Assembly: GCA_037783545.1 (NCBI GenBank)
Contig: JBBELK010000376.1
Span: 744,001 to 808,000 of the forward strand
DNA: 64,000 nucleotides
Direction of reading: 5' to 3'
DNA from: Henricia sp. BOLD:AAB3569
Taxonomy: Eukaryota; Echinodermata; Asteroidea; Spinulosida; Echinasteridae
Shown: one piece after another, positions 2,771 to 59,229 of the stretch
How positions within the stretch are numbered: the first letter of the stretch is position 1
How the letters are laid out: the number at the start of each line of letters is the position of its first letter
The notes under the pieces: model-generated
Seen by the model: the letters and a program-made list of their open reading frames with translations, nothing else
The model's database searches: none
What the model was told of the DNA's origin: nothing
Program-made: the position numbers and the translations under genes

Positions 2771-5700
2771 CTGTTTGGAGAAAAAAATACAAAAATCAGA
2801 CTCAACTCATTCATGAGAATTATATAATATTGGTTGGCTTTGAGGGTGATATGAGAATATACGGCACAAGTCATAAAAATACTGAACGAGCCAAAGGCTT
2901 AGTTCGATAACTAAACGTTGGTCTTTTTGTTTTCCGTTGAAAGCTTTCATTTGAAAGCGAATAACTTTTACGTTTCTAGAAAATTACTAATTCAATTTTT
3001 TTTCTAATTTTAGAGGTGCCACACCCAAAACACACGGACCATATACAGTATCTTTAAATGACTTAACCCGGTTATCACTTTTAAACGACATGTATAGCTA
3101 TCTCATTTAAATAACTAATAACTATGTTCTTTAAAGGACTTAGCTATATCGTTTAAACGAGATAGTTACAATGTAAGTCGTAAATGACTTGGCTTACATG
3201 ATGTACATACTGTACCGTGATACACAGATTACCAGACAAGTAACAAAGTCGTTTATTAACAACATACACATGTATGTCATTTAAATGAGATAGCTAAGTC
3301 GTTTAAAAGAGATAAAAATTTTGTTTTAGTGTTGGCAGCAACACGCTTCCGTACAAATATACATGTACCGTCGATTTGGCTCAAAATTGATCCACATACC
3401 TGAATGAAGACCGTAAAAAAGATGACCACAATGCAAGTGGTGAATAATATTGCTTTATTGTCGATGATGTCCTTGCATAGTAGTGCTACTAGGGAGAAGG
3501 CAATGGCTCCCCGCAGACCTCCATAGGCCATAATGAACTGCTCGGTTTTACAGATCCGGCCCAGACGGAAGAAGTTGGCTACTTTGGTTTGAATAATGAC
3601 TCCTGCAAAGAGAAATGTTTGAAAAGGCCTGTTTAAACTCGATTTGCCTTTGCCGAATCAAACTCCACAATTTCTAAAAGGGGGAGTTGAAGCCGGGTAG
3701 GCGCCAAGTGTAAACGCAAAAGGCAAATTGAAAAAGGCGGATCAGACCCGGGTCTGATTCACCTTTTTAAAGTCACCTTTAAGGTAGGGGTCGCTTGTAG
3801 TGTAAACACTACCCGAATACAGATTCGGCAAATTGAGTGTCTTTGGGGGGGAGGGGTGCCCGCCATGTAGTAGATTTAATTGACTAATCTGGCACTAGTG
3901 CAGCAACCAACACAGCTCACGCACGCGCTACATTTACAATTAGTGGTGACTTTTGCAGTTTTTGAAGGCGAAATGAAGCAGAAACAAGGTGTACAAAAAG
4001 CGGCAAATGTTTAGTTTTGCGGTCGCAATAAAAATGCTGGGTCTGTATCCACCTTTGCCGGTTCGAGTGTAAACACGGTGATATACACGTACTTAGAGGA
4101 TCTGCTGGAATTATCAGGTTCAATTTAAAATTCAAAATTTACAAAATTGCTCTTTAGCAATCAGCCACTACACAGTTTCACATTCGAAGCTTCTAAAAAT
4201 ATTCTTAAAGACGGATTACATGATTGGAAAACTTTAAAAAACAGCAACAACATGCATTACATAACGGAGTAATAATGTTGATAAACTGCCTTGTAGAAAT
4301 TTCAGCCACATACACTGTACATGTACACTGTAGATGCAGTTATAATACTTTAGTAAAAGTGAAAAATCGTGCATGGTCTTTGTGCTGAATGAATATATAT
4401 ATTTAATAGTCTGTGGCCTATTACAAACAAACAAAAATCTTCAGTTGGCAATTTCTCACACAAAGAAATTATTTTACATGGGGGGAAAAACATCATGTGG
4501 TGTTTGTTACCATTGCTATCAACACTTTTAATCCCTGTTTTTCTTGTCAACTCGTAAAGTAAAATGTTAAGTACTTGTAACTGGAAATGATGATGTATTG
4601 GACTTTAAAGACTGACCAAGTAACTGACCAAGTATAAGTATCGAAAACAATACCTGGTGAAGCATGGAAATAATTACAGTTAAACACAGGATTGGATGAG
4701 AGAAAAACCATATGGCCCTCATTATATTTCATTCAAATGTAATTTGAAATATGCACATTTACGTACATGTAAGTACACAATAAGTACCTTGTATGAATGT
4801 GGACAAGTAAAGAAATAGAGCCTATTCTTAAACGAAATCATCGGCAATAATGCCAGACAATTTCCCCCGATAGTAGCCAATTAACCATTGCCACACTGCA
4901 TGGTGGAAAGGAAGCACACTTGTTTGTGCAGGGCTTTCCATAGTGAAGTTGGATTTTGGAAAGATCTCAAGAGGAATCTAGCTTACCGATACTTCTGTAC
5001 AACAAACAAAAGACCAGCGTGAGGACAACAAACACTGTGTTCCACTCATGTTCCTCCAGGTTGACCAGTGTAGTCACACCTAGAAAGATGAAGATGATCA
5101 TTTCGCTGATGCTACTGAGCATCTTCAGGAAGTACTTGATGGTGGTGTGTGACTTTTGGGAGATGTTGGACTCTACGTACGGCTTCATGAAGATGGCACA
5201 GAAAATTATCCTGTAAGAAAAATTATGATTTTATTTTTAGATTTTTTGGTGATCAAACAGCAACTACATGTAGGATTTTGCGTGTTTAAAGGAGCATGTC
5301 CACATCACATTTTTTTTCCATGGGTGTTGGAGATTTTGATACCATGTCATTTGTCATATTTTTCCCATTCTAAAACATAATCAGTGAGGAAAGAAATACG
5401 AAATCTTGAATAGAGGAGCACTGTTCATACAACATCAGCTTTTTTTCCCAGCTGGCCACCAGGACCAATTGGTCTAAAGTTAGAACACATAATTGGTAAC
5501 CCGAAATGATCACAGATTTGCTCATAACTTACACAATATAAACATGATGATGGTAGTAAACTTCCCCTGAAATGGTTTTGTCTGAATTTTACATGTATAG
5601 TCTTTGAGATGTGAGCAAAACAATCATTTTTCGTCTTGTGAGACGTAAATTTACTTCGCCCCAAAACCATTTCGCCCTGCACCACTTCGCCGTGAACCAC

Positions 5701-11700: not shown

Positions 11701-14700
11701 TTCGAATGAGAGGTCTCTTAATAGTTATTAAAACTCAAGTTATTGTGGATTTTCTTCAGTCGAATCTGACCCGTTTTGTTTTAGTCCAAATACGCTGGCA
11801 CAGTCCAAGCGGTTTTAGTAGATATTGTTTACAGATCAGTTAAACAGTTCTGTTAACACGGCATTAATCTCAACCTCTAACTGAACATCCAGTTGGTACC
11901 GTGTTAACAGATCTGTTAACACGGTGTTAACACCATGTTAATTCTCTGCACTGTACATTGGGCGAAGTTACAACTCTGAGTTGCGTGTTAGTGTAACAGA
12001 TCCGTTAACTTCATCAGAATTGTGACCTCAGAACAAACAACGTATTAACACGATGTTAACATGATGTTAACATGATGTTTAAGACGTGTACGGTGTTAGT
12101 GTTACATCTCATGTTAGTTCAAAACCTCATGTTACACATCGTGTTAGTGTAACAGATCTGTTAACAGATCTGTTAACAGATCTGTTAACAGATCTGTTAA
12201 CCTGAACGAAGTGGGTGGTATTATTTGGAACTTTCGTGATTCTCAATAAATTGAATTTCATATTTCAGCACAACTTTTGAATATGAATGTGTTCTTGCAT
12301 TCTATATCCACAATTGAGACCTTTTTTGGGACTCCGTGAAGATTTTGAAAATTTCAATCTTTTAGTGGTTATAAGCTCATGCAACACGGATCGGAGGTCA
12401 CAATTCTGTATTAGTGTTGAAAGTCAATGCAGAACCCTATACCGGGGCGACGCGAAAGTCGTCAAAGTAAAAATCCAAATTTCTGCTAGCATAAAATTGG
12501 GTCTTTTGAAAATACTCTTTGCGAAACCAAAAAACCTGAAAATCTACCAGCAGAAAATGAGAAATTTGGGTTGTCCACTTTTGACGCTCCATATAGGGGG
12601 TACCCTCAGCCCCATATCGTGCTGCATATGCAAAAATCGCTACTCATGATCACAGATTCTTAGTAATAAGACTGTGGTCTGTGATTACAGGGGACAGCAC
12701 CAATTTCTTTAATATTTTGTTCTGTGATTACTGACAAATATTTAAAACAAAAGACCATAAAGGCTCATAATTTGTTCCATTATATTGAATAGGAATTTGG
12801 TGTCCCGGGTTACCTACCAGGTATGCCATTGAAAATTAGCTGGAGAATGAGTTTGCTTTACCCTTGGTGCCTTATCCACACACAAACGGTAAATTTAAGC
12901 GGCATTTATGGAAATAAAAATAAATATTTTCTACTGGAAAACCACTTTCAATCACTTAACATGCTTGAAAATCTTTAAAAGCATTTGTCACACTTTTGGA
13001 CACCTAATTTTGGGAATTACCCTTATTGATGTAATTTGCCCAAACATAACACGGTATACTGGTACATGTATGTGAAAACCTGTGCTTTTCCCCAAAAACT
13101 CGCTAAAAACACATAGGTCGAGTTCGGAGGGTCTGTTCTTGACACGCGAACATTGTTCTCGCGCCCGAACAGCGGGAACACGACCACCTACATGTATCAC
13201 ACACCACCTATCCACTGAGTTACCCGTGTCAAGAACAGACCGCCCGAACTCGACAACCATGCACTTGCTCGGGTGGGACCCTCATGCATACCAGTCAGAT
13301 GTCTTAACCACTCAACCACTGAGCTTGCCAGTGCCGAATGAGAGATTTGTATGGTCCTACGTGGGCGAATATTGTATAAAGTAAGGTAATTACTTTATTG
13401 GCCAATATGGTGTTTTGAATGGATACATGTACAGTAATTTGCCCATACACGACATGGTATTATTACTGGCTCAAATTTTTACACAATTTAAAAATGACCC
13501 CATTCAGTTCAAAAACTACTCCCGGATTTGGAGTTGGGAAAACTTACCACAGTAACAGCGTCGTTAAGCAGGGATTCCCCAAAAACCAAGATATATAACA
13601 CCTCATTCACATGCACCTCCGTGAAAACTGCCAACACGGCAACGGGATCGACGGCTGATATAAGACTACTAAACGTTAGGCACTCCAGTAAGCTCACACT
13701 TATAGAGGTGCCATTCCTGTCACCATACCAGCCAAGCTCCGAGATTCCGTACAGTGAGAAACCAATAGCCATGGTGTTGAAAAGAGTACCAATGACGGCG
13801 TAAAGCAGGATTGTGCCAATGTTGTCAAAGAATGCTCTGTGGTGAAAAAAAGAAAGATAGCTAGTACTGTACATCGGCAACTCCATGTAAAATGTCATTA
13901 ACATTACTGGAAATTAAAATCAACCATTAAACCTCCCACGGCACATTTACCATTACCGTACATGTGTCAGTGCCAGTAAATGGTTCGTTTTGCTGTTAAG
14001 CATGCTAGAATCTGCTGGCGGGTCAAACACACATGCTTTATACTGTAGTAAACAAATAACCAACCAGTTACCTGGTAATACATGTAGCCCGCAAGCGAAA
14101 GGACATAACAATACATCTCCGCGCAAAGCATGATGGGCTTATAATGGATTACTCACCGAATCCCCGCTCATTGTGTTTGTGCCGAGTACGTCAAACTTAC
14201 GGTACTGTACTTTTTAACGCGCTTTTTAACCGAGTGGGATGCAGTTAGGCCGCGGCACTAGAGCCACCTCCGAAGAGTCTCTGGGGAATATTTTGGCGAC
14301 AATTTTACTTTAGTAAATTGCCCCTATGTACGATCGTTAAATTCATGAAACAACGCTATATACCCCGTAGGCCATTTCATTAGAGTACTCCAAACAATCC
14401 CATTAACCCCTGCGCGTCATGGTTTTGTTTACACTGTTGACGTCATCTCTAATTCGGTCTATTATTGAAGTATATCAGTTCACTACGCAGGCGCTTTATG
14501 AACAAATTGTGAAACTAATTTCCAGGTACGGGTACTATAATACATGTAGGCATACATGTACATGTAGTATACAAATATTGACAGCTCTCATGATGGTGAT
14601 GGTAAAAGCTATTAATGTCCCACTTGAGGTGATCTTGAGATATTAGGCCTGCTTGAGACATTAAGCAGCTAGTTTACACCATCACTCGAATAAAGAACAG

Positions 14701-32700: not shown

Positions 32701-35700
32701 CATCGTAAAAAATGAGCACCTTGTTTATTGTTTTGAAGAATTTGTACAACTGCATATAATGAGAAATATATGTTAAAGATTATTTTACTGCTTAAAAATA
32801 AGATTTTCACCATATACATAGGTTTTGAGATGTAGCATCTCAAAGTGTCGGGACACGAAAATAGACACTTACATGTACTGAAGAATGACCCCAAGACGGA
32901 TGCCTTGTTTCCCAACTCCCACACGCCGTCAAGTATGTAGAAATCTGGTGGACCTGACTCACGCCCTCTCAAGCCAGAGCGCCGAAGTGCAAAATATGGC
33001 GACTTACATAAAGCGTACAAAGTTAGGCCACCCTTTGCAAGTGTTGTCCCTTCCTTTACATCTTACGTACATGTGTATTTTAACTGTAAATGTGAAAGAG
33101 CTGGTTTCCTGAATGTCAACAACCCACTCGAAATGACTTCTCATGCTTGCAAAAGCACTTTGTGTTTAACTGTCGAACGTCATGCAGTGTACAAAGCAAT
33201 TCTTGTGCCAAATCAGATCCGACATTTGGAGCCTGCATGGTGTCGGCGCCCACCGTACCGACATGCATGACTCCGTACCGACATGACTTCACGATCGATA
33301 TATACACAAACGTCGCTCGATCGGTGCCGATCAAATATTGTAGTGGCTCCATCGCCGCAATGTGGCAAAGCCAGAGATTTACCGTGCAGTACGCATCTGC
33401 ACGATGTGCTGATAATTGTCGATTGATCGGAATATTTGCATTGTGAAAATGGCGTATCGGGACAGCTACTAAAGTGAAAACGTCACCCTTTGTTCATTGT
33501 TGTTTGTTGCCATGGTTTTTGGGTCTACACTAAAACCAGTGAACTGTTTCCCTGCGCTATACCTATACCAATGACGTTTCAGATTACCAGCAAATGTTTA
33601 GACCCAATTACCATGGCAACCGGCGTCACACTTTAGTCAGTTTTTAGTAGTCTATTGTGAAATCAATAAGCCCTCTTACAGAAACACAGCGATACTAGCT
33701 GGTACAGTGTACTACAAACAAATAAACACCAAAGGCTAAACAAAATACCATCCCACGCAGTCTCACGATGGTTTGCACATGGTACAAATCACAAAATGCA
33801 TGCACACCGCAAGTTACGACAGTAGCACCGCGCTACAGCCGCAGATTCCGTTCCGAGTCCATTCCCGGGTCAATTTCATCCCACCAAAGCCGTTATCTTG
33901 TTCATTACAACAAATAAATCGTGTAAAAGAGCGGGTTTGAAGATAAAAAATACATATAGGCCCTAATTTATAAAGAAAGCTGCCGTAGCTGCACGTGCGT
34001 GATCACTTTCAACCGGAACCCACACCGCTGGCAATACTTGCCGAACCCGAACCAAACAAAACAAATGTTCGGAAAGACATTTCCAAACTTTTGCTGAACC
34101 GAACCGAACCCGAACTTGCGGACTTCGAAACAGCATCTACTATTACCTTTTTTGTGAAAAAAAAAGGTAAAATTGTGGCTCACAATGAAGCTCTTTTGAA
34201 GTATTGAGACCGGTGGTTTTGTCACGGAACGAACGGCACACAGCAGTCCGTGTACAGCAGTGGGAACGGTCCCTGCGAGCCGTACATGTAGTTCCCACGT
34301 GTTTGAAATTGGCACAACATGCACATCGGCCGGTACAAGCCAGACCAAGCGACTAATTTTTCTCTCTCTTTTTCTTTCATAGTGTCTGGTAATATTATTA
34401 ATACAGGTCTATTTAGCGTTTCAGAAATTGCGAAAATTTCATTTTCAAAAACTGCACTTTTGCTTGAGATTTATCCACTTAAAATGGACAATTTGAAATA
34501 AACAGCAGTATAAGTCGGCTGGAGGGATATGTGGACTTTAAATTAATATAATAAACTTAGTGTCACCTGCTGTACCTTATTACCAAAATAACTTGGTTTA
34601 AAAAGCACCTTAAAAGTTAAGTAAGGTTGTTTTTGCCCTTACCCGACGTAATTATTAACACTCAGTGCTTTCCCGAGACACTATGAAAAACTTCATAGCG
34701 TGCTCGGGTGGGACTCAAACCCACGACCTCCTGCATACAACCTTACTTAACATTCAATTTCCCCGACGCAAGTCTAAATCAACTTCTGACCTTAAAAGTT
34801 AAAAAAATTAATTGAATTTTTCATTTTCTTGTTTCTAAAAATGCACTTGAAGGCATCTAATGCTTAAAATGTTAAGCCAGTTTTTTATATGCCTTATTTA
34901 TCATGAGAAAGTTTAATTGATATTGCAATGAAATGGAAACGTTATAAGGCCTTTTCACACTACATGTATGAAAAATCTTCGCGAGGGCGGACGTGCGCGC
35001 GCGAGGGCGGACGTGCGCGCGCGAGGGCGGACGTGCGCGCGCGAGGGCGGACGTGCGCGCGCGAGGGCGGACGTGCGCGCGCGAGGGCGGACGTGCGCGC
35101 GCGAGGGCGGACGTGCGCGCGCGAGGGCGGACGTGCGCGCGCGAGGGCGGACGTGCGCGCGCGAGGGCGGACGTGCGCGCGCGAGGGCGGACGTGCGCGC
35201 GCGAGGGCGGACGTGCGCGCGCGAGGGCGGACGTGCGCGCGCGAGGGCGGACGTGCGCGCGCGAGGGCGGACGTGCGCGCGCGAGGGCGGACGTGCGCGC
35301 GCGAGGGCGGACGTGCATGCGCGCGCGAGGGCGGACAAGGGCGCGCGGACGAGGGCGGTTGAGCGCGGACGAGGGCACCCGACCACGGACGTGGGCAGTC
35401 CAGGTTGTACGTGTTGGAAATGTGAAGGCACACTAACAAGGGTTTATGAGGATCATTCATGCGCGACGCATGGCCTCCGGGTTATACCACAAACTGTACG
35501 TTAGTAAATAGCTGCTATATATGTTGGCCGTTTGGACTGAAAATTATATCCAAAACCAGCTCGATGGAACAACGAGAAATACAATGTAGCAATATTTGGA
35601 CTATTTCGACCAGTGTTGACGGTCAGTTGTGTGTCTAGTGTGAAACGATCGCACGATACACGGGTCGAAACCTTACATGTGTAGAAAAAAATGCTCGTGT

Positions 35701-53346: not shown

Positions 53347-53789
53347 TTTTCACACCTACCCGCGATCACGTGCGTAAGTACAGCCAAAGCGCAGTAATGT
53401 CAATGAGAACGATTTGGTTTCGAGTCAAGGATGGAAGAGGGTCGCCATGAGCTACCTTGAGCGTCAATCATCGGCGCTTGTTTTGGGCATGCTCAAAACC
53501 AGCGCAGCGGGTCGTCGATCTGACGACGTGTAATGCATGACGCAGTACAACCGCAATGGCAGCGCAAAGGGAACTATACATGGGCGTATCGTGGACGCGC
53601 ATAGCAACAACGCACTGTTTTGGTATATATAAACACAGCTTTATCATCTGCACACAATCAGTATGCATCGATCTGCTCTTCACTAGGGCCGTAGTCAAGC
53701 AGATCTCAGAATGCGCTAATTGTACAGTACTTACCTATGGGGCCGGCGCCGTTCGTCAACTAATTATTTAGGCGAATTATAGCATGTTT

Positions 53790-55115
53790 TTTCCATGGTT
53801 TATCTTAATTCTGTGTAAATAATGCATTTGTGTCAAAGGCCGTTTATGGTTTACAAACAACTCGATTCTTTACAAAACAGGAAATATACTTGTAGCTGTG
53901 CAAATTCATTATTTACAAATAATGAAAATTACCTCGGCGTTCCATACTTTATTAATGAAACCGACCAGTGTACATTTCAATGGTTTACAAACAAGAGAAT
54001 TGTATCGTTCATAGACAATTCCATGGTTTATAAATAATGAATACTGCACATTGCTGCACGTTTTTCTGGTTTACAAATAATACAAAACTATCCAGTGCGC
54101 AATTAGGTCCTACATGGTTTATAAACCAAGAAACTTGCACCGGTGTCACGGTCTCAGATGTTCCGCGTGCTCAGATGTTCCGATGACGTCACGGAACAGT
54201 TCAGCACGTTGCGTGCACGATCTCAGATGTTCCGCGTGCTCACATGTCCCGGTGTAAAAGGTAAAACTGTCCCCTTGCGAATGTGTACCCGGCTTTCCAT
54301 AGACGAGTGCATACAAGCATTGTAACCAGTGGCGAACGTTGGCAACGTTTGCGTATGTGGAACGCTGGCCCTGTACATATCTGCGCGCCTACGTACATGG
54401 CGCGAATTCTGCTGATCAACTCAGCACTTCAGCTAAACTGGTATAATTACGTATGCTGTGCGCATGACGTTCCGTGACGTAAGCTACCATATTTGGTCAT
54501 CGGAACATCTGAGCACGCGGAACATCTGAGATCGGGACACCTGGGTCTGATTTTCTATGGTTTATAAATAATGAAAATTGGTTAGTGGACGTACAATTCC
54601 ATGGTTTATAAACAATCTAAACTGCGCCGTTCTAATCAATTTTGTGGATTCTGTGGTTTGTAAACAATTACAAATAGTCAATAGGCGTGCATTTTGATGG
54701 TTTGTAAATAATTGAAAGTGATCGTTGGCTCACAATTTCATGGTTTATAAATAATGAAAATGAACTAGTTAGTGTGTCGCAAAATTTCATGGTTTACAAA
54801 CAGAAAAAAATAAAGCTTTATACACTTGTCTGTCGTTTGTAAAGGTTGACTATCGATAAAATAAGAAGTATTATGCACTCGGTACATCTCAAAATACGAT
54901 CATTGACGAAAAATTGAAGGGTTTGTAAATAATGAAAATGGACTAGTTAGTGTGTCGCAAAATTTCATGGTTTACAAACAGAGAAAATTAAAGCTTTATA
55001 CACGTTTCTGTCGTTTGTAAAGGTTGACTATCGATAAAATAAGAAGTATTATGCACTCGGTAGGCCTACATCTCAAAATACGATCATTGACGAAAAATTG
55101 AAGGGTTTGTAAACC
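53790..55115 (+). repeat. array of TGGTTTRTAAAYAATG units (left arm)
   Basis: About 17 degenerate units, typically 40-70 bases apart, each with TGGTTTATAAATAATG, TGGTTTACAAACA or GGTTTGTAAATAATG. The core TGTTTAC/GTAAACA resembles the forkhead (FOX) consensus RYAAAYA. A mirror copy occupies 57780-58700. Confidence 0.85.
54142..54541. mobile_element. 400-bp MITE inserted in the left arm only
   Basis: Inverted ends of about 45 bases: GGTGTCACGGTCTCAGATGT and CATCTGAGATCGGGACACC, then repeated CCGCGTGCTCAGATGTTCCG. The matching place in the right arm (near 58355) is uninterrupted, so it came in after the arms formed. Confidence 0.88.
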
Positions 55116-55424
55116 ATGAAAAACACGCTTCATAAACGTTTATTATAATCCAGTAACGTTGCGAGAGCAATGGGTGCGTTCAATTAGCTATCATCGAGTC
55201 ATAGGGTGCTCGTTCATAGTGTGAACAGTCCGGCAGACCATGGCAACAAAGGTATTTATGTGTACAGCTCATCGAACGCCACGGCACAGCCTTCAGCGCG
55301 CGCGCGGGAAATTCCAGGTTCATTAGCTGACTAAACCTAGCCGCGTATTGGGCCCGAAATCCAGCAGCGGTCTCAGCAGCGGTTTCAGCCGCGGTCTTAA
55401 AATCTCAAACGGATGTAGTAAAAG

Positions 55425-55495
55425 GTGATAAAATAATAATAATAATAACACATGCATTTGTAAAGCGCCATCTATCTATGTAAACATATTCTTAT
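55425..55495 (-). mobile_element. LINE 3' tail fragment (left arm)
   Basis: On the minus strand GATGGCGCTTTACAAATGCATG is followed by TTATTATTATTATT, a typical CR1/L2-like 3' end. Absent from the right arm. Confidence 0.65.
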
Positions 55496-56837
55496 TTTTT
55501 ATTACACGAGTTCTGAGACTCTGGCAAAGAAATTGTTAAAATTCTCAAAGAAATGTATTTCGTTTCACGGTGTTACCTAACTTAGTCATCTACCGGGCTG
55601 ATTAAATTTTAAATGGTAATTTTAATTAATTAATTTTTAATTAATTTTAATTAATGAGGAGTGTCCATTTTTTACCCCAAATTAGCATTTGTATTACATA
55701 CTAGTAATCCATTTAATCCGTTCATGGGGCAGATCAAATTTTGGAGGAAGCCAAATCGGTACACTAATTAGTGCTTAATTAAAGGGATAATAAGGAGTCT
55801 GGTTTCCACTAAAAAAGTGCCGAAAACTTAATACTGCTGACAAAATGGTCCCTTTAAAATAAAATGTACACCACATAGTTTGAAAAATTTGCATTTTTAT
55901 TACATAATCCGTTTGAAACTATGTAGTGTACATTTTCTTTTAAAGGGACCATTTTGTCAGCAGTATTCAGTTTTCGGCACTTTTGGGGTGGAAAATGGAG
56001 ACTTCTCATTAGCCCTTTAATTAAGCACTAATTTGTGGACCGATTTGGCTTCCTCCAAAATTTGATCTGCCCCATGGACGGAACAAACGGAATATGTAAT
56101 AAAAATGCAAATTTTTCAAACTGACCGCCGTCGGCTGCCGTCGGCTGGGAAGCGACCGGTCGGCATCGGCACACCGACCAAAAACCACCGGCGGTTCGCC
56201 GGTGGCTTGCAAGTGGCACGCGAACAGCGTTTTACAGCTCCCGAGCTACTAGCGAACCACTAGCGGTATCCAGTGGCAAACCACCAGTGCCACTGCCGCT
56301 CCTCAATCGCCAACGGAGCACTAGCGGTCCGCGGGTGGCTGCCACCAGCGGCCCGCTAGCGGTGCCGCTAGCGGGCCGCTGACGGCCCGACCGCGGCTTG
56401 CGCACTGGGCGTGGTGTACATTTACTTTTAAAGGGACATTTTGTCAGCAGTATTAAGTTTTCGACACTTTTATAGTGGAAACCAGACTCCTTATTAGCCA
56501 TCTAATTAAGCACTAATTTGTGGACCGATTTGGCTTCATCCAAAATTTGATGTGCCCCATTGACGGATCAAACAGATTATGTAATAAAAATGCTAATTTT
56601 TGAAACTATGTGGTGTACATTTTCTTTTAAAGGGACCATTTTGTCGGCAGTATTAAGTTTTCGGCACTTTTGGGGTGGAAAATGGAGACTCCTCATTAAT
56701 TAAAATTAATTAAAAATTAATAAATTAAAATTACCATTTAAAATTTAATCAGCCCGGTAGATGACTGAGTTAGGTAACACCGTGAAAAGAAATACATTTC
56801 TATGAGAATTTTAACAATTTCATTGCCAGAGTCTTCG

Positions 56838-57470
56838 TTCAATGAATAGTGTGTTACTGACTCCGGGAAATGTTAAATGTAAAGTTTCATTAGGCGATTG
56901 TGCTTTTCAGACCGCTGCCCCTAAACTATGGTCCAAACTTCCAGGTCACATCAGAAATCTTAGGAGTCTTGAGAAGTTTAAAACTGAAGTTAAAACATAT
57001 CTTTTTAAACTTGCCTTTGATTTATGATTTTTAATCTTAATTAAGTAACGATGATGTGATTAGTTTCGTTTTTAAAATGTGCAGCGCACATGAACATATT
57101 TATATGGAATGCGCGCTATATAAATGTAAAAACTATGAATTGTAGGATAGGGCGACAAATCGTGTGTAAAAAAGGTATATTAGGGCGACGTGCTCAATAG
57201 GGCGACATTTTGGTGTCGCCCTAATATTTTTGAGTTTAAAATTAATTTTTTTAGGTCAAAAACCATTTTTTTTAAATCGAGAACCATTTTTATTGGGTCT
57301 GGAACTGTCTCTCTTAGGTCTGTGACCATCAGTGGAAGCTTCGGGTAAAAAAATAAGGTGTCATTTTGAGTGATTCTTGCCGAAATTTCGGTGGTCTCCG
57401 GCGAGAGTCTTGCCGAAATGTCGCCCTATTGCGTCATTCAGCGTTCTTTAAATTATTATTATTATTATTT
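56838..57470 (+). mobile_element. non-LTR retrotransposon (CR1/L2-like) 3' fragment, interrupted
   Basis: The plus strand encodes 61 residues including CAFQTAAPKLWSKLPGHIRN and FKTEVKTYLFKLAF, the characteristic C-terminus of CR1/L2/jockey-type reverse transcriptases. A 3'UTR with GCGCGCTATATAAATGT follows and, after an inserted MITE, a TTATTATTATTATT tail. 5'-truncated, as usual for LINEs; only in the right arm of the inverted repeat. Confidence 0.85.
57150..57426. mobile_element. TA-flanked MITE (GGGCGACA ends, 277 bp)
   Basis: GGGCGACA and TGTCGCCC termini flanked by TA at both sides (57148-57149, 57427-57428), the Tc1/mariner-type target. Internal AGGGCGACATTTTGGTGTCGCCCT palindrome halves. 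Nested inside the LINE fragment. Confidence 0.75.
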
Positions 57471-58791
57471 AACTCGTGTAATAAAAAATAAGATTTTATC
57501 ACCTTTTACTACATCCGTTTGAGATTTTAAGACCGCGGCTGGATTTTGGGCCCAATACGCGGCTAGGTTTAGTCGGGTAATGAACCTGGAATTTCCCGCG
57601 CGCGCGCTGAAGGCTGTGCCGTGGCGTTCGATGAGCTGTACACATAAATACCTTTGTTGCCATGGTCTGCCGGACTGTTCACACTATGAACGAGCACCAT
57701 ATGACTCGATGATAGCTAATTGAACGCACCCATTGCTCTCGCAACGTTACTGGATTATAATAAACGTTTATGAAGCGTGTTTTTCATGGTTTACAAACCC
57801 TTCAATTTTTCGTCAATGATCGTATTTTGAGATGTACCGAGTGCATAATACTTCTTATTTTATCGATAGTCAACCTTTACAAACGACAGAAACGTGTATA
57901 AAGCTTTAATTTTCTCTGTTTGTAAACCATGAAATTTTGCGACACACTAACTAGTCCATTTTCATTATTTACAAACCCTTCAATTTTTCGTCAATGATCG
58001 TATTTTGAGATGTACCGAGTGCATAATACTTCTTATTTTATCGATAGTCAACCTTTACAAACGACAGACAAGTGTATAAAGCTTTATTTTTTTCTGTTTG
58101 TAAACCATGAAATTTTGCGACACACTAACTAGTTCATTTTCATTATTTATAAACCATGAAATTGTGAGCCAACGATCACTTTCAATTATTTACAAACCAT
58201 CAAAATGCACGCCTATTGACTATTTGTAATTGTTTACAAACCACAGAATCCACAAAATTGATTAGAACGGCGCAGTTTAGATTGTTTATAAACCATGGAA
58301 TTGTACGTCCACTAACCAATTTTCATTATTTATAAACCATAGAAAATCAGACCCCGGTGCAAGTTTCTTGGTTTATAAACCATGTAATTGCGCACTGGAT
58401 AGTTTTGTATTATTTGTAAACCAGAAAAACGTGCAGCAATGTGCAGTATTCATTATTTATAAACCATGGAATTGTCTATGAACGATACAATTCTCTTGTT
58501 TGTAAACCATTGAAATGTACACTGGTCGGTTTCATTAATAAAGTATGGAACGCCGAGGTAATTTTCATTATTTGTAAATAATGAATTTGCACAGCTACAA
58601 GTATATTTCCTGTTTTGTAAAGAATCGAGTTGTTTGTAAACCATAAACGGCCTTTGACACAAATGCATTATTTACACAGAATTAAGATAAACCATGGAAA
58701 AAAACATGCTATAATTCGCCTAAATAATTAGTTGACGAACGGCGCCCCATACTTACCCTCGGATCGCAGGAGGCTCAATGTATACAACTTA

Positions 58792-58999
58792 AGCCCGCCG
58801 CACACGTACACCTTTGCGATTTACCGGCACATCGGATCATCGGACCACTTTACCGGAAAGGTGTGCGCTGAAACAATTCGGGCCGGTCTGACCGCACGCT
58901 ATATATAGACCGGAGCAAATCAAACTTGTTTGATTTTTCCGGATCCGATGGTCCGGTGTCCGATGTGCCGGTAAATCGCAAAGGTGTGCGGCGGGCTTT
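58792..58999. mobile_element. MITE family H, copy 1
   Basis: Ends AGCCCGCCGCACACG and GTGTGCGGCGGGCT, then TTTGCGATTTACCGGC and its inverse. Interior has TCGGATCCGATGG-like repeats. A second copy starts 40 bases downstream. Confidence 0.88.
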
Positions 59000-59039
59000 A
59001 CTCACGCGCAGTGAGCGCGCGAGTTGCAAACGTAACTAA

Positions 59040-59229
59040 AGCCCGCCGCACACCTTTGCGATTTACCGGCCCATCGGACACCGGACCATCGGATCCGAGC
59101 AAATCAAACTTGGCTCCGGTCTATGGTGTGGGGTCAAACCGGCCCGAATTGTTTCAGCGCACACCTTTCCGGTAAGTGGTCTGATGATGATCCGATTATC
59201 CGGTAAATCGCAAAGGTGTGCGGCGGGCT
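59040..59229. mobile_element. MITE family H, copy 2
   Basis: AGCCCGCCGCACACCTTTGC and GCAAAGGTGTGCGGCGGGCT are exact inverse ends. The interior is the reverse of copy 1. Confidence 0.9.

Follow-up and report, generated by a model that had tools for sequence, protein, structure and literature searches.

A probable IS3EU-like fold-back transposon in a Henricia genome, with arrays of putative protein-docking sites in its long inverted arms

The window analysed here is a 64,000-nucleotide stretch of Henricia sp. BOLD:AAB3569 (assembly GCA_037783545.1, contig JBBELK010000376.1, positions 744,001 to 808,000 of the forward strand). It contains a 5-kb element in which two long inverted arms carry a recurrent short palindrome. 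A first-pass annotation made from the sequence alone had proposed a 5-kb inverted repeat at 53728-58757. The inverted repeat was confirmed: blocks of 525, 319 and 307 bp display 98-100% complementarity and are mirrored about the element centre, the ends are fixed and both are flanked by a target-site duplication. The annotated interval covers the element and both duplications, but the true ends are 53736 and 58751. The features of the element, in window coordinates, are the following.

53736..58751, no strand assigned: whole element, 5016 bp, termini TATGGGG..CCCCATA
53730..53735, no strand assigned: left target-site duplication CTTACC, 6 bp
58752..58757, no strand assigned: right target-site duplication CTTACC, 6 bp
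53736..55681, plus strand: left arm, including nested insertions
56669..58751, minus strand: right arm, inverted copy of the left arm
53794..53824, plus strand: outermost unit, half-sites about 13 bp apart, read from the sequence
53845..55118, plus strand: left array of 18-bp palindromic units, starting at 53845, 53907, 53979, 54022, 54065, 54113, 54556, 54600, 54652, 54696, 54739, 54788, 54917, 54966 and 55101, with a weaker one at 53864
57785..58683, minus strand: right array of units, starting at 57785, 57914, 57963, 58092, 58141, 58184, 58228, 58280, 58324, 58367, 58408, 58451, 58494, 58566, 58628 and 58666, with a weaker one at 58609
54144..54539, no strand assigned: nested terminal inverted repeat (TIR) element of 396 bp in the left arm, TGTC..GACA, 4-bp duplication CCGG/CCTG
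54742..55122, plus strand: tandem duplication of about 178 bp within the array
55434..57492, no strand assigned: centre, with nested repeats, a LINE-like tail (by eye) and a GC-rich insert

When the left arm is aligned with the reversed right arm, the two differ by a few bases only outside the insertions. The alignment shows one large insertion in the left arm, the 396-bp nested element, and several small ones; the right arm has an empty site where the nested element lies, and so do the left arms of 5/5 other copies examined. Two short TA-flanked inserts, TAGGTCCTA and TAGGCCTA (54104-54112 and 55061-55068), are likewise missing in the right arm, as well as in four other copies, and they look like the excision footprints of a TA-duplicating transposon. 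With these left-arm insertions and a centre full of nested repeats, the exact mirroring reported by the first-pass annotation did not hold. Over the whole element no open reading frame longer than 89 amino acids was found, and Rfam and tRNA scans of the 64-kb window gave no match.

The recurring unit of the arms is an 18-bp near-palindrome, CATKRTTTRYAAAYMATG, present in 16 copies per arm. The earlier count of some 17 motifs per arm agrees with 16 units plus a weaker one in each arm, but the exact string TGGTTTRTAAAYAATG occurs only three times per arm, the real unit being more degenerate and palindromic. The reported spacing of about 40-70 bp can be made more precise for the right arm, where ten of the 15 gaps measure 41-52 bp and the remaining five 38, 62, 72, 129 and 129 bp. 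The units were strongly confined to the element. At a threshold of at least 15/18 consensus matches, 32 sites were detected in the element (16 per arm) versus one in the remaining 59 kb, and two were found in 29,650 bp of genomic DNA beside other copies. When the window was scanned with a 26-bp weight matrix built from the units of the left arm, 34 sites inside the element reached 10 bits or more and none outside it did. In the leave-one-out form of this matrix, 15/16 units exceeded the best outside site (9.3 bits), and one failed (7.8 bits).

The matrix of the 16 left-arm units is dyad-symmetric to a degree that 0/20000 shuffles of its columns reached, and the flanks of the unit take part in this symmetry (2/5000 shuffles, 6 bp per side). 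Superimposed on this dyad is a polarity: the GG-type half occupies the outer position in 14/16 units and the inner position in only 2/16, so most units share one orientation. The 13 units lying outside the 178-bp duplication have centres that are 83% alike versus 26-40% for their spacers, which argues against a simple tandem repeat. In three other copies inspected (L014, L035 and L047), the half-sites of the outermost unit are likewise separated by about 13 bp, with the same layout as in the window. Helical phasing of the units was not significant, as 247/2000 random sets did equally well. In viral contigs the array pattern gave 0 matches, and the 18-mer of the element end gave a single match to unrelated DNA, which was taken as chance.

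To place the element in its genome, 740.7 Mb in 2104 contigs were searched. With the outer 396 bp as query, 408 first-look candidates were obtained, of which 40 were scored and proved 98-100% identical. A search with the first 35 bp, allowing at most three mismatches, yielded 185 forward and 194 reverse ends, whereas the reversed control yielded none; these 379 ends correspond to about 190 copies. The arms are thus not unique, and the refuting case named by the first-pass annotation, unique arms with no conserved ends, does not apply. Both ends were read for 36 copies, namely a set of 20 including the window copy, a further 15, and a pair of ends on contig C122 discussed below. Exact 6-bp duplications were present in 17/20, 8/15 and 1/1 of these (26/36), and four more have one mismatch, whereas pairing the flanks of different copies gave 0/380 exact 6-bp matches. 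TATGGGG stands at both ends of 20/20 copies, although it was no part of the query by which 19 of these were retrieved. No duplication longer than 6 bp was seen in the 20 copies.

The 18 measured copies span 3.3-4.6 kb. Their longest listed inverted block is about 0.9-1.8 kb in 16/18 and 0.6 kb in the other two, where the filter used drops matches spanning the centre; the single block is shorter where the number of 178-bp repeats, variable among copies, differs between the arms or where the centre is rearranged. A strong hairpin is predicted in the centre of one copy. Frames were measured in 33 of the copies with both ends read. The longest have 72-200 amino acids, except for a frame of 1067 amino acids in L048 that we take, by eye, to be LINE-like; L037 and L039 presumably carry LINE-like pieces as well. 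A 12.7-kb copy (L011/L012) and a 15.4-kb copy (L040/L041) were considered as autonomous partners and rejected, their interiors carrying frames that we take, on the same grounds, to be Ty3/Gypsy-like. Two other arrangements were observed. In L044 (3604-3768) a second family end begins within the right arm, as would be expected had one copy been inserted into the arm of another or been rejoined there. L045 and L046, on contig C10 and about 100 kb from each contig end, have an identical 61-bp family-end fragment adjoining an element that is presumably DIRS-like, in opposite orientation; contig C10 may be an inverted chimera of two haplotypes.

Across 65 arms of the family the number of units has a median of 16 (range 2-19, the lowest values belonging to interrupted arms). 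For a constraint test, 65 arms, which exclude both arms of the window copy and the right arm of the reference copy, were each pairwise-aligned to one reference; 57/65 were kept and eight were dropped for gaps or insertions. In the 57 arms, variable columns amounted to 13/234 in units versus 63/351 in spacers (p=8e-6), a difference reached by 0/584 circular shifts of the mask, and the rate of variation in units is about one third of that in spacers. Away from gaps the figures were 11/234 and 56/351 (p=1.6e-5, 1/584 shifts), and the unit rate was the lower one in 9/9 arms with at least five changes. A first form of the test (p=3e-7) was discarded as an artefact of misaligned 178-bp duplications.

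The core of the unit had been assigned to the FOX-family consensus RYAAAYA, as a possible multiplied transcription-factor site. This assignment stands for the inner half, which fits RYAAAYA in 14/16 units, but not for the outer half, which fits in 1/16. The unit consensus contains RYAAAYA, as do 812/20000 shuffles of the consensus and 201/20000 shuffled palindromes; the match is therefore better than in shuffled sequence, but this comparison is powerless to separate a FOX site from an AT-rich palindrome. The pattern of conservation is more informative. Variable columns are 1/78 in the outer, non-FOX half and 3/78 in the inner, FOX-fitting half, so that the RYAAAYA core is not the conserved part of each unit, both halves being conserved, and the symmetric site is wider than the FOX core. 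As the FOX match covers only part of the conserved unit, the outer half being at least as conserved as the inner one, an array of FOX sites is disfavoured. The whole dyad, its polarity and its placement in both arms are better explained by a putative dimer site of transposase type, which we favour. The alternative reading of the first-pass annotation, a transposase-binding array in a transposon, is in agreement with the multicopy family, its fixed termini and duplications, and its constrained, mostly one-way units, all of which point to putative binding sites.

The family was compared with published systems. IS3EU families end in TA..TA and in most cases make duplications of 6 bp (PMC10045372), and fungal IS3EU elements have TAYGG..CCRTA ends and TIRs longer than 30 bp (PMC12730594). 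The terminal signature, the 6-bp duplication and TIRs above 30 bp are all found in the Henricia family, so that its TATGGGG..CCCCATA ends, duplications and long inverted ends match the IS3EU signature. The length of the duplication alone is indecisive for the superfamily, since 6 bp is also produced by Polinton and some hAT families and MuDR produces 4-10 bp (PMC10045372, PMC12730594). The likeness to IS3EU and GingerRoot comprises the termini, the duplications and the inverted ends, and in one case an rva_4 integrase enclosed by a pair of them; long arms with some 16 palindromic sites and a fold-back layout do not appear in the excerpts consulted (PMC10045372, PMC12730594), and the candidate partner measures 52.9 kb.

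The arms themselves recall other elements. In Drosophila, the transposase of Galileo, of the P superfamily, binds several sites inside long TIRs, as demonstrated by footprint and gel shift (PMC3688188). The long, internally repetitive inverted ends are a shared trait, and the multiple sites per end of Galileo are a precedent; three THAP sites are described in the Galileo TIR, whereas about 16 palindromic sites per arm, another motif and a 6-bp duplication are observed here (PMC3688188). Tetris, of Foldback type, is similarly non-autonomous, with long TIRs (up to 1,735 bp) containing tandem repeats, a variable middle and no known partner; it differs by its 8-10-bp duplications, its repeats of about 220 bp and its suggested Mutator affinity, versus 6 bp and 18-bp dyads in Henricia (PMC4079207). 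Mutator is the group in which most Foldbacks are placed; duplications of the Tetris length are absent in the 20 copies, and 6 bp lies within the 4-10 bp of MuDR. Very long inverted ends, internal repeats and the ability to fold back, which characterize Foldback-type elements, are all present in the family. The first-pass annotation knew no named element with this layout; the layout is in fact that of Foldback and Galileo, and what stands is its combination with the IS3EU terminal signature. A literature search of titles and abstract openings, with most subscription journals and Repbase outside its scope, returned no description of such unit arrays in IS3EU, which is weak evidence of novelty, and found IS3EU and foldback mentioned together only through a reference-list entry.

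The search for an autonomous partner, also suggested by the first-pass annotation, produced a single candidate. The rva_4 integrase family was matched 53 times in the genome, a figure in which pieces of one gene are in part counted separately, versus 0 times in 14 control genomes. One of the matches, in a frame of 370 amino acids (C122:829771-830880), is enclosed by a pair of family ends 52.9 kb apart, at C122:788445 and 841344. ATCCAG is present on both outer sides of this pair, each end has 17 units, and the arms match with 14 mismatches in 1585 aligned bases and 15 gaps. The integrase matches Pfam rva_4 with an E value of 4e-69, rve being below cut-off, and has D, D and E residues at spacings of 56 and 33 or 36; no sequence match was found in the PDB. 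We take the rva_4 family to be linked with IS3EU. The interior of the pair was read for about 19 of the 52.9 kb (L053 and L056-L059), about a third; ten further frames in this part had no Pfam family above its cut-off, and polymerase and capsid domains were not found among them. One frame has its start within the arm, 1.37 kb away from the left terminus. THAP domains were absent from Pfam scans of ten window frames, two integrase frames and the ten C122 frames, no genome-wide THAP search having been made. The chance expectation of an rva_4 match in a 52.9-kb stretch is about 0.004 (53 per 740.7 Mb, a rough figure for one interval), and that of an exact 6-bp match is 1/4096 by our own arithmetic. 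Taken together, the ends and gene observed on C122 designate a candidate giant autonomous partner. Other rva_4 genes of the genome occur in sets of equal frame length and score (293-amino-acid and 333-amino-acid frames, for example), and these sets are probably separate multicopy transposon families.

The similarity of the two arms within a copy was also examined. In 20 young copies, the within-copy identity was 99.89% versus 99.87% between copies, with identical arms in 11/20, and these values give no sign of arm-to-arm copying. In a set of ten copies, 44/100 changes from the reference were common to both arms; plain shared ancestry explains such changes equally well, and three of the ten copies had an arm dropped from the constraint test. 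Copy L039 has two right ends, of which the outer was taken for the analysis. Between its right arm and the second right end lies an inverted duplicate of the left flank, 357 bp long and exact (L039 6020-6516, with L049 325-685); after it come the outermost 120 bp of the arm, the terminus and the target-site duplication. This arrangement fits copying in which the left arm served as template, with run-out into the flank and a switch back, but it could also reflect an assembly error.

Elsewhere in the window, exons of a Na/H exchanger gene (Pfam PF00999) are located on the minus strand at 3277-3657 and 13509-13913, and a GC-rich tandem array with a 20-bp period, 19.5 copies and 94% matches is located at 34980-35376. 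Another inverted-repeat element, at 58850-59175, lies immediately to the right of the transposon.

On these observations, the 5-kb repeat is likely to be a DNA transposon of fold-back type, non-autonomous and belonging to an IS3EU-like family, with arms carrying putative docking arrays for an integrase or a partner protein, and with an enzyme that would be supplied in trans, the rva_4 gene of the 52.9-kb C122 element being the best candidate source. A DDE integrase coded elsewhere would cut at the TATGGGG..CCCCATA termini and insert with the 6-bp duplication, both of which are observed. The palindromic sites, some 16 per arm, would most likely be bound by a dimer, either of the integrase or of a partner protein that the same element encodes, to judge from their constraint, their dyad symmetry, their orientation and their presence in both arms. 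The bound array would increase end recognition and synapsis in an element with very long ends, and the pairing arms may, more tentatively, be kept partly alike by copying one from the other, as the changes common to both arms and the flank duplicate of L039 suggest. Several points weigh against this interpretation. A recognisable target-site duplication is missing in 6/36 copies, and no frame resembling a family transposase was seen in the 35 copies other than the C122 pair, as judged by length and by eye and not in all cases by Pfam. In the young copies (40 arms), which are too alike, variable columns were 4/252 in units versus 8/353 in spacers (p=0.77); the set including badly aligned arms gave 123/234 versus 205/351 (p=0.17), and the arm filter of the positive test was chosen after that outcome. 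The arms also share ancestry, so that the columns are not fully independent.

Two other explanations concern the array. The element could have multiplied, for transcription or targeting, the sites of a transcription factor of the host, either a forkhead protein or some other factor of AT-rich sites; the RYAAAYA match of nearly every inner half would suit this reading, and constraint is also expected if a host factor aids the element, but the outer half, which fits in one unit of 16, is equally conserved, the dyad exceeds the FOX core, and sites with a mostly outward GG half occur in both arms, which renders this explanation rather improbable. That the array is a passive, functionless tandem repeat expanded by slippage seems very unlikely: it is true of the 178-bp stretch that it is a plain tandem duplication of variable number, but the 13 units outside it share little spacer similarity and the units are constrained relative to the spacers.

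For the candidate partner, the question is what the C122 pair represents. It could consist of two single-armed remnants with a chance 6-bp match around an unrelated neighbouring integrase, the true partner being elsewhere or extinct. No second copy of the integrase exists in the genome (the closest other matches are 39-46% identical), only about a third of the interior was read, and since ends with one to three mismatches lie outside the list of exact ends, further ends may stand between the two. The match of ATCCAG in the right orientation, the closeness of the arms over 1585 bases and the fact that C122 has just these two family ends among the exact ends listed argue for a single element, and we regard the remnants as unlikely, although by a smaller degree than the other alternatives. 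The C122 candidate, and hence the family, could also belong to Polinton/Maverick or to another giant or virus-like group. A 6-bp duplication, inverted ends, an integrase and a large size are compatible with Polintons, which measure 15-25 kb and up to 40 kb (PMC6431247, PMC10045372). The TATGGGG termini fit the IS3EU signature (PMC12730594), the integrase matches another family, rva_4, with rve below its cut-off, and neither polymerase nor capsid genes appeared among the frames tested in the roughly one third of the interior covered, so that there is little probability left for this assignment. The fuller form of our preferred interpretation is tentative, and we hold it as a possibility somewhat short of an even chance: a 52.9-kb giant transposon of IS3EU type, with 1.6-kb ends of 17 palindromic sites each, would supply the integrase to about 190 fold-back copies that retain little beyond the ends, the arrays would be selected as a multivalent docking platform that makes the movement of so long an element possible, and arm-to-arm copying would match the ends.

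In 2013 it was described as untested whether the internal repeats of Foldback and Phantom ends serve as binding sites (PMC3688188). The family described here is young and of high copy number; each of its ends has about 16 short dyad sites on which constraint can be measured, and there is a named candidate for the enzyme, which makes the question of Foldback-repeat binding directly testable. If the 52.9-kb candidate is what it appears to be, a giant DNA transposon would be added beside Polinton and Teratorn, both described in PMC6431247. For the Henricia genome itself, long near-perfect palindromes at about 190 places bear on genome stability and on assembly.

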